Made by a program: the position numbers and the translations under genes. From Treponema sp. (GTDB taxonomy: Bacteria; Spirochaetota; Spirochaetia; Treponematales; Breznakiellaceae), in assembly GCA_031257195.1 (NCBI GenBank), contig JAIRPD010000082.1, positions 1 to 53,967 on the forward strand: a DNA stretch of 53,967 nucleotides. Reading direction: 5' to 3'. Position 1 is the first letter of the stretch. Every line of letters starts with the position of its first letter. Positions 5,148 to 44,012 of this stretch are shown here, piece by piece. Under the pieces are notes generated by a model that was given only the letters and a program-made list of their open reading frames with translations, made no database searches and had not been told where the DNA came from.

Positions 5148-5274
5148 CCGCCGGTTTTTGTGTCCTTGTTCGCCGCGGGGTATATGTACCGGAGCTTGTT
5201 CTGTCCGCCGCCGAGCGCGGTAACACCGCCGGCGTTGCGCGTAACGTTCCTGTTATGCGCGGTAGCGCCGTACC

Positions 5275-5430
5275 CCATTATTTTTTTATTATTATCGTGG
5301 AACGATTATTTATAAAGCATAAACTGAATATATCATCAATGCTTTTTATAAAAATATTTTTGAAAAATTCTCCTATAATTTTATAAAAAGATACGGTGAA
5401 TTTTCCAAAATTATTGGGTGGTTTTTACCA
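5275..5430. other. AT-rich patch beside integrase relic
   Basis: About 155 bases rich in T and A runs in an otherwise GC-rich window. An imperfect hairpin precedes it (GCGCGTAAC near 5237 against GTTATGCGC near 5252). No ORF or clear site is visible. It abuts the end of an integrase remnant and may mark the edge of a former insertion. Confidence 0.5.
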
Positions 5431-5834
5431 AATATACCATGTTTTGTGGCGGACTATGCGGGTGTAGCGGGCGGTGGTCTTGATAGAGGTGTGGCCCAGG
5501 AGTTCCTGAATGTAGCGGATGATGGTACCGCTTTCAAGGAGATGGGTGGCAAATGCGCGGCGGAGGCTGTGTATTGAGGAGTTTTTTGAATGTTGGCTTT
5601 CATGAGGGCCTGCTCGCAGACGCGCTGGGCCGAACGGATTGACAATGGTTTAGCGGTATCCGCGTCGGGGAAAATCCACCTGGTTATGTCTGTTTTGGTG
5701 TAATAGCGCTTAAATGTATTGATGACCAGGTCTGATAAAATTGTATAGCGATCTTTGCTCACTCTGGTGATAATAGTTTTGCGGCTAAAGTCCACAAATA
5801 TGATGGAACAAGCATACCGCGCCGAAACCGGCAA
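5425..5834 (-). pseudogene. Tyrosine recombinase (integrase) C-terminal relic, frameshifted
   Basis: The upstream frame (start at 5834) reads DFSRKTII then KDRYTILSDLVINTF, typical of the middle of phage-type tyrosine recombinases. At a run of six A (plus-strand T run 5582-5587) the frame breaks. In the -1 frame it continues as [15 protein letters not shown] and [15 protein letters not shown] to TAA at 5425-5427, giving the HxxR motif, the LGH box and the nucleophile Tyr. One more A in the run would restore a single frame. The N-terminal arm and core-binding domains are missing: the first 12 residues do not match. I infer a decayed integrase. Translational slippage on the A run is possible but cannot rescue the missing N-terminus. 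Confidence 0.85.
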
Positions 5835-13537: not shown

Positions 13538-14104
13538 GCGTTCTTGCCGGCGGGTCCAGCGCCCTTCCCGGTAACGCCAGCGCCTTTGCCCGCGGGGACA
13601 GCGCCCCTGCCCGCGGGGATAGCGCCCCTGCCCGTGGGGACAGCGCTTTTGCCGGCGGGGACAGCCGCCTTCCCGGCGGGGACAGCGCCCCTGCCCATGG
13701 GGACAGCGCCCTTGTCCGCGGGGATAAGGTCCTTACTGCCGGGGACAGCGCCCCTGCCGGTGGGGTCAGTTCCCTTGCCCGCAGGGATAGCGCCCCTGCC
13801 CGCAGGGATAACGCCCCTATCCCTGGTGATAGCGGCCGTATCCCTGGTGATAAGGCTCGTACCGGTGGTGATACGGACGCTATCCCTGGTGATAAGGCTC
13901 TTACCGGTGGTGATAACAACCTTATCGGTGGTGATAGCGTTCTTATCGGTGGTGATACGGCCCTTATCGGTGGTGATACGGCCCTTACCGGTGGTGATAG
14001 CGTTCTTATCGGTGGTGATAAGGGCGCTATCCCTGGTGATAAGGCTCTTATCGATGGTGATACGGCCGCCACCGGGGGTGATACGGCCCTTCCCGGGGGG
14101 GCCA
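13538..14104. repeat. 27-copy tandem array, 21-bp period
   Basis: The array divides without gaps into 27 units of 21 bases. The unit drifts from a GC-rich form (GCGCCCCTGCCCGCGGGG then ACA/ATA) on the left to a form with CTTATCGGTGGTGATA on the right. Right-hand units contain small CTTATC...GATAAG inverted pairs. Because 21 is divisible by 3, all frames lacking a stop stay open, producing long false ORFs on both strands (plus-strand heptads such as LPVVIAF, minus-strand ITTGKGR). It ends 65 bases before a sensor-kinase gene and begins about 220 bases after the porin gene. No coding role is supported. Confidence 0.95.
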
Positions 14105-21758: not shown

Positions 21759-22059
21759 TCCCCGGTTGTAGTGAGCCGCTCCCCGGTTGTAGTGAGCGGC
21801 TCCCCGGTTTTTGCGAGTAACTCCCCGGTTGTAGTAAGCGGCTCCCCGGTTGTAGTAAGCGGCTCCCCGGTTGTAGTGAGTGGCTCCCCGGTTTTTGCGA
21901 GTCGCTCCCCGGTTGTAGTGAGCGGCTCCCCGGTTTTTGCGAGTAACTCCCCGGTTGTAGTGAGCCGTTCCCCGGTTGTAGTGAGCAGCTCCCCGGTTGT
22001 AGTGAGCGGCTCCCCGGTTGTAATGAGCGGCTCCCCGGTTCTTGCAAGGGGCTCCCCGG
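21759..22059. repeat. Tandem array, 21-bp period, two unit types
   Basis: Fifteen unit starts (TCCCCGG) occur exactly every 21 bases from 21759 to 22053; the last unit is partial. Two unit types alternate irregularly: A carries TTGTAGTGAG or TTGTAGTAAG, and B carries TTTTTGCGAG. The order is A A B A A A B A B A A A A, then a diverged B-like unit with TTCTTGCAAG. The heptad translations (plus SPVVVSG, minus TTTGEPL) match those of the 13538 array (LPVVI.., ITTGK..), so the two arrays look related. The stop-free frames on both strands are by-products. The rest of 21567-22200 is GC-rich with no gene seen. Confidence 0.95.
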
Positions 22060-43024: not shown

Positions 43025-43127
43025 CGTTCTCTCCTTGTCACGCGTTATATCCCCCGCCCCAACGGGCGGCGTCGCGATGTGCCCGCGGCAAGCCGCGCCT
43101 TTGTCGTTGTTATCTGACCCGTCCTTA

Positions 43128-43270
43128 GTCAGACCCCTGACCAAGGCCGGGTCAGACTCCTGACTAAAGCCGTGTCAGCCCCTTGACCTAAGCCGTGTCA
43201 GACCTCTGACTAGGCCCGTGTCAGACCCCTGACCTAAGCCGTGTCAGTCCACTGACTAAGCCGCGGTCAG
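43128..43270. repeat. Seven 23-bp tandem units with GTCAG-N4-CTGAC palindromes
   Basis: GTCAG recurs exactly every 23 bases at 43128, 43151, 43174, 43197, 43220, 43243 and 43266. In the first six units it is paired with CTGAC (once TTGAC) after four bases. Linkers read roughly TAAGCCGT. Helical phasing of 23 bases is about two turns, so all palindromes face the same side of DNA. The array starts 104 bases upstream of the BspA-like gene and ends about 120 bases before the promoter of the opposite-strand gene. Confidence 0.93.
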
Positions 43271-43388
43271 AACCGCCGTACCGCTTATGGTTCGGGGGTT
43301 TGCGGGGAAGGATGTCAAGGGCCAAAAACCGGCGTCCCCGCGAAGTACGCTGGAGTCACCGAATGGCGGCGGGATGACGCGTTTCTTA

Positions 43389-43468: not shown

Positions 43469-44012
43469 ATGGGAAAAATACAAGCAATACCAGAATGGAA
43501 AACCACAACCGATGAGATTTGGGCCTTACTAAGAGAAACCGCTCAACGGCAGATGGAAACCGCCCAACGACAGGCGGCTGGGAAAACTTACTAACCGTTT
43601 TGGCGAGGTTGTGGAGTACATGATAATGCCGAACCTTGTGGCAAAATTCCGTGAACTGGGCTTTGAATTTACCAAGGCCGGCCCTAATATCGAGATTGTT
43701 GACCGGCGGCACGATATTATCCTGGAGGTTGACGCTTTTCTGGAAAATGGCGATAAGGTAATGGCCGTGGAGGTTAAGACCAAGCCCAGCATTGACGACA
43801 TAAACGGCCATGGTGAGCGCATGGAAAAGCTGCGAGCCTACGCTGATCTGCATGATGACAGACGGGCGTATTTAGGCGCCGTCGCGGGGGTGGTTTTCAG
43901 CGAAAGTGAAAAGATATACGCCTTGAAAAAAGGTTTTTATGTGATAGAGCCTTCCGGCGATACGTTTAACATCATTGAACCGAAGGGCGCGTACAAAGTC
44001 CGGAAATGGTAA
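43469..44012 (+). pseudogene. DUF3782-type PD-(D/E)XK protein, frameshifted
   Basis: ATG 43469 gives a 41-residue frame (KIQAIPEWKTTTDEIWALL, then QRQ..TAQRQ) ending at TAA 43592-43594. Skipping one A in the AAAA at 43583-43586 moves into the frame LTNRFGEVVEYMIMPNLVAKF, which runs to TAA 44010-44012. The joined protein has the family's order: a short helical head with repeated RQM/RQA, then a nuclease-fold domain. That domain has ILEVDAFLENGDKVMAVEVKTK, the D...E-x-K signature of the PD-(D/E)XK superfamily. A frame from ATG 43611 would still contain the nuclease-like domain and may be translated alone. A sequencing indel is possible. Confidence 0.82.

Follow-up and report, generated by a model that had tools for sequence, protein, structure and literature searches.

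Plasmid centromere and iteron arrays (parC/ParR, tubC/TubR, initiator sites) consist of short repeats beside the gene that encodes their binding protein. In RAYT/REP systems and their BIMEs, a gene is tied to short extragenic palindromes, and the classes of repeat match the gene (PMC2817692, PMC3116915). A contig of a Treponema species (JAIRPD010000082.1 of assembly GCA_031257195.1; the whole stretch of 53,967 nucleotides that was analysed is called the window here) carries an array of 23-bp palindromic units that abuts the remnant of a gene for an HU-Ig protein, in which the Pfam families HU-DNA_bdg (PF14848) and DUF4469 (PF14734) are combined.

Like RAYT genes, HU-Ig genes are accompanied by palindromes whose class matches the gene and which can be dispersed in intergenic DNA, but the HU-Ig partner has no transposase signature, and its units follow one another head to tail every 23 bp, for the most part 3′ of the gene. 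Like plasmid centromeres and iterons, HU-Ig modules set a number of short repeats beside the gene for a (here putative) binding protein, but they are chromosomal, up to 16 were detected in one genome, and each has a sequence of its own. Neither partition nor replication genes were noted beside the modules examined. HU-Ig proteins share an HU-type DNA-binding domain (by Pfam profile) with the nucleoid proteins HU and IHF, from which they differ in having a locus-specific repeat partner and an extra Ig-like domain.

The DUF4469 HU-Ig family has many copies in Treponema and in Bacteroidota relatives, and we know of neither a function nor a DNA target for it. A 2017 paper in Cell Cycle by Burroughs et al. 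reportedly describes an expansion of HU-Ig proteins in Bacteroidetes, with invading DNA as their possible target. No description of 23-bp arrays was found in the open-access full texts searched, although Burroughs et al. may have noticed them earlier; the HU-Ig module with a private array is widespread and apparently undescribed.

The array in the window and its flanks

The array can be read as seven CTGAC-N9-GTCAG units or, equivalently, as six GTCAG-N4-CTGAC palindromes with a half-site at either end (Table 1). The palindromes start at 43128, 43151, 43174, 43197, 43220 and 43243, and five of the six are exact, the one at 43174 having a single mismatch. Tandem Repeats Finder assigns a period of 23 across 43128-43271. 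By chance 0.62 such palindromes would be expected in the window (sd 0.81; maximum 3 in 100 shuffles), which holds six and gave no match beyond the array. The original prediction of seven phased GTCAG-N4-CTGAC palindromes was thus right about the 23-bp step but not about the count, since seven is reached only in the CTGAC-N9-GTCAG register, and in that register the array begins 14 bp before the 43128 first proposed. It had also placed all sites on one side of the helix. One 23-bp step corresponds to 2.19 turns at 10.5 bp per turn, a rotation of about 69 degrees between units, so the sites do not share a helix face. Tandem repeats of 21 bp elsewhere in the window (13543-14091 and 21759-22059) are of a different kind and would encode 7-residue repeats within long ORFs.

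Table 1. Coordinates of the array and of the elements of the module around it, in positions of the window.
Feature	Position	Strand	Remarks
C-terminal remnant of an HU-DNA_bdg+DUF4469 gene	43256..43300	-	reads NPRTISGTAVLTAA-stop; extends into the first unit of the array
Array of 23-bp palindromic units	43114..43270	-	exact 23-bp steps
Leader from the array to the next minus-strand gene	43025..43113	-	near-identical leader after a DUF4469 fragment on contig C129 of the same genome (L264)
Downstream gene of the module, 255 aa	42257..43024	-	signal-peptide-like N-terminus; begins MKRRGWIAAAVLVCAGLVVTAPARAQ

Only the last 14 codons and the stop of the HU-DNA_bdg+DUF4469 gene survive in the window, and the intact gene is absent. 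Twelve of the 14 residues are identical to those of a DUF4469 gene on another contig of the same genome (C85, L019), as are 68 of 81 bases across the remnant and the start of the array, and a profile of the DUF4469 C-terminal tail scores the remnant at 11.2 against a 99.5% null of 10.5. The leaders in the window and on C129 have GCCGCCCGTTGGGGCGGGGGATATAACGCGTGACAAGGAGAGAACGATG in common. Since the DUF4469 remnant abuts the array and the leader recurs after the DUF4469 fragment on C129, the window holds a decayed copy of a module composed of gene, array and secreted-protein gene. The remnant occupies the position directly 5′ of the array on the same strand, and the window has both the 22-23-bp step and the dyad-symmetric arms of the arrays described below.

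This context differs from the one first proposed, an array between divergent genes for a BspA-like surface protein and a DUF3782-type protein. Divergent ORFs are present, but neither family label has Pfam support: the protein encoded at 42257-43024 matches no Pfam family above cut-off, and none that would support BspA, while the plus-strand neighbour (43470-44012) contains an in-frame stop near its start and likewise has no Pfam match. The abutting DUF4469 remnant had been overlooked.

The genome of origin (G000; G, C and L numbers denote genomes, contigs and loci) is of termite-gut Treponema type, comprising 2.54 Mb in 135 contigs at 91% completeness, and the window contig bears a chromosomal-type purine synthesis gene. 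A genome-wide search for the palindrome, proposed as a check in the original prediction, found it to be rare, neither common nor singly scattered: nine of 12 exact copies lie in two arrays (five in the window, four on C85), one in a remnant on C74, and two singly inside genes. A common uptake or Chi-like signal was rejected on this basis, with only 12 exact palindromes in 2.5 Mb. The C85 gene (L019) is itself a broken copy, with the same array adjoining.

Association of arrays with HU-Ig genes

Among the 200 family genomes, 16 from 10 of the 57 genera carry GTCAG arrays at a 23-bp step, and a reversed control pattern gave no matches. When the gap was freed to 2-20 across the order, arrays of the family used gap 9; the exceptions were one single pair with another gap (G096) and two genomes of another family with shorter steps. 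In another family of the order, L194 and L195 (G217 and G226) have GTCAG palindromes at 17- and 18-bp steps, and DUF4469 was detected in G217. Among the matches listed, named records with GTCAG arrays at 23-bp steps are Treponema and Spirochaetaceae MAGs; the matches listed from a scan of genome contigs were mostly to unrelated Actinobacteria with other spacings. Viral contigs contained no 23-bp-step arrays of GTCAG flavour. Units within one array are near-identical, loop and spacer being uniform within arrays and variable between them, and copy number varies.

Clustering of the ORFs around 34 GTCAG arrays revealed one recurrent neighbour, directly 5′ and on the strand that points into the array, which Pfam identifies as HU-DNA_bdg (PF14848) plus DUF4469 (PF14734). 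The stop codon of the DUF4469 gene falls within the first unit of the array at several loci. By the C-terminal tail profile, a DUF4469 tail abuts 11 of the 34 arrays, including that of the window, with the gene always pointing into the array; the other 23 have no adjoining tail. All 16 GTCAG-bearing genomes possess DUF4469 genes, from 1 to 15 each. Sequence was sufficient for 81 of these genes, and in 50 of them a significant tandem array lies no more than 350 bp beyond the stop, with a period of 23 in 46 cases, 22 in three and 33 in one. Upstream arrays accompany eight of 56 genes (six of period 23), a bias towards one side that departs from the inverted REPs on both sides of RAYT genes; thus some DUF4469 genes have an array upstream and some have none. 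Background sequence from the window's own genome gave arrays of period 22-23 in 0 of 463 windows. Within the sequences compared, the pairing of an HU-Ig gene with a 23-bp palindromic array of its own is an anatomical rule.

The longest ORF that starts within 900 bp downstream shares the strand in 67 cases and lies on the opposite one in 26, and a simple lipobox rule fits 20 of the 67 same-strand genes against none of the 26 others. Several contigs, among them L271, L281 and L300, stop inside an array, or at or shortly beyond a DUF4469 gene; arrays therefore probably break assemblies and are undercounted.

Beyond the family, DUF4469 is present in 132 of 294 genomes of the order Treponematales. 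Most of a further 25 Treponematales loci, which include single-contig genomes of another family and some near-duplicates, have such an array shortly 3′ of the gene; 17 of the 25 score at least 25, and 23 have a best period of 23 or 46. In plasmid-labelled records of Parabacteroides (Bacteroidota), L339, L340 and L343 carry arrays of period 23 shortly 3′ of the gene, that of L339 consisting of five units followed by a fimbrillin gene; L341, also from Parabacteroides, has a weaker 24/48-bp pattern. Two phage-labelled records encode a homologue with no array directly after it, and a query with a five-protein alignment found no relatives in viral contigs. Judged by sequence, the association of gene and array spans Spirochaetota and Bacteroidota.

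Constant step and variable sequence

While the step of 22-23 bp is constant, the palindrome itself differs between loci, as in GTTCAAA-GGG-TTTGAAC, GGGAAG-AGCGG-CTTCCC, CGACAAG-C-CTTGTCG and TCCCA-N6-TGGGA. Against column shuffles, 38 of 55 arrays are palindromic at p≤0.05, where about three would be expected by chance, and about 17 are not significantly so. The arms hold 1.56-1.93 bits, a range partly inflated by selection of units on their arms, against 0.08-0.77 for loops and spacers. Where two exact GTCAG stand 23 bp apart, the CTGAC between them is exact in 177 of 200 cases. The arms of L198, L293, L294 and L295 differ, and their spacers all resemble AGCCTTAG, perhaps a shared element next to the variable arms.

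Array similarity follows protein identity weakly (rho 0.20) and only above about 50% identity, and protein pairs at 80-85% identity can carry unrelated arrays. A simple recognition code between protein and array is not readable from so weak a correlation, and the faster divergence of the arrays argues against a simple sequence-specific one.

An AlphaFold2 model of an HU-Ig protein (67 sequences, mean pLDDT 90, pTM 0.54) retrieved a single structure with Foldseek at E≤0.001, the putative DNA-binding protein 4fmr of Bacteroides vulgatus (E 1e-17). The low whole-chain TM-score would fit a flexible two-domain chain. PADLOC anti-phage profiles had no match among three DUF4469 proteins.

Dispersal and orphan arrays

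In some genomes a single flavour is found at many sites. G052 contains 169 unit pairs of TCCCA-N6-TGGGA flavour, and the arrays sampled there lie between genes or at the ends of contigs, with unrelated neighbours and no DUF4469 gene; GTCAG arrays are likewise dispersed in several genomes. The GGTAG flavour, by contrast, occurs only beside one DUF4469 gene in G311, G248 and G245, which are assembled in one or two contigs. Orphan arrays have both orientations and lie upstream of, downstream of or between convergent unrelated genes. Genes have decayed beside a surviving array in the window and at L019, L198, L205 and L207.

At L080 (330-521) perfect inverted repeats of 20 bp (GGCTTTGCCGGCTTGGTCAG and the complement) enclose the entire GTCAG array, which looks as though it had grown in a hairpin; growth at a terminator apex, which this flanking repeat suggested, was rejected, the repeat being clear at L080 alone. 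At L212 two arrays (110-551 and 5245-5456), about 5.1 kb apart, have nearly the same 50-bp 5′ flank, and the pair represents a segmental duplication that ends at the array.

The positions of arrays across genomes do not suit a multi-site operator of the two divergent genes, as first suggested, because arrays of relatives lie 3′ of DUF4469 genes or are orphaned beside unrelated ones; an operator of the flanking genes was rejected since relatives keep the array without those genes. A replication iteron set, another early suggestion, is unlikely in view of several arrays per chromosome and none in viral contigs, and the window contig is itself of chromosomal type.

Possible functions of the arrays

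On balance we lean towards the array being the 3′ tail of an HU-Ig module whose protein binds it and creates a local nucleoprotein structure. Such a module would run from the PF14848+PF14734 gene to an array at or just after its stop and often on to a co-directional gene for a lipoprotein or secreted protein. We infer that the protein recognises its array in double-stranded form and probably binds as dimers, which would read the dyad or a bent structure as much as the sequence. Once coated, the array could insulate or regulate the gene that follows, and other sites in the genome with orphan arrays of that flavour would be additional targets. Counting against this reading are the divergence of arrays faster than that of the proteins, the 23 of 34 GTCAG arrays with no adjoining tail, the arrays that are not significantly palindromic, and the DUF4469 genes with an upstream array or none. 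Conserved arms, variable loops and spacers and the lack of an RNA strand preference are consistent with the earlier proposal that small palindromes of this size suit a dimeric DNA-binding protein. Among the earlier readings, that of a protein-nucleation site comes closest, the binding being putative.

We rank DNA binding with a local nucleoprotein structure ahead of a REP-like selfish repeat, an RNA function and neutral repeats, in that order. The selfish reading, in which the HU-Ig protein, perhaps aided by recombination or replication enzymes of the host, amplifies and spreads the palindromes and leaves orphans as debris, is unlikely but compatible with the nucleoprotein reading. It would explain why some genomes have arrays of matching flavour at many intergenic sites, as well as homogeneity within arrays, the patchy distribution among family genomes and the decay of genes beside surviving arrays. 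However, DUF4469 proteins contain no recognisable nuclease or transposase domain, the GGTAG flavour is not dispersed in three genomes of one or two contigs, and the Y1 transposase (PF01797) has no match in G000 (91% complete) or G044, both of which carry GTCAG arrays; membership of RAYT/REP was rejected for its absence from the window's own genome. The 1.8-Mb genome G011 has 34 matches to Y1 (IS200-type) transposases, against none in the window's genome.

An RNA role, in which the transcript between the HU-Ig gene and its downstream neighbour would form successive small hairpins that control termination, stability or translation, is improbable. The position of arrays just 3′ of stop codons, often ahead of a co-directional gene, would suit it, and arm mutations on the sense strand favour G-U over A-C by 70 to 40, a weak hint from counts that are not independent. 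Against this, folding energy does not differ between sense and antisense strands in 67 arrays (p=0.49), the palindrome centres of several arrays are 0-2 nt long, a size unfavourable for RNA hairpins, and orphan arrays occur in both orientations, even between convergent genes. Least probable is that the arrays are tandem repeats without function, the product of slippage during replication at the 3′ ends of genes of a fast-evolving family. Variable copy number, near-identical units and fast divergence of array sequence are what slippage would give, but the 22-23-bp step and the dyad arms have been kept over two phyla despite changes in sequence, background genes lack such arrays, and arms are conserved relative to loops.

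More tentatively, with the odds somewhat against it, HU-Ig proteins may form a two-phylum family of self-marked DNA-binding proteins, co-diversifying with arrays that are private to each paralogue and have spread in some genomes. If this is true, one genome would contain many parallel chromosome-structuring or self-recognition systems. The arrays provide a concrete, testable target for each DUF4469 paralogue and could explain the expansion of the family. Were binding shown, gut and oral bacteria would have a class of chromosomal nucleoprotein element not recognised before, constant in geometry and private to each locus in sequence.
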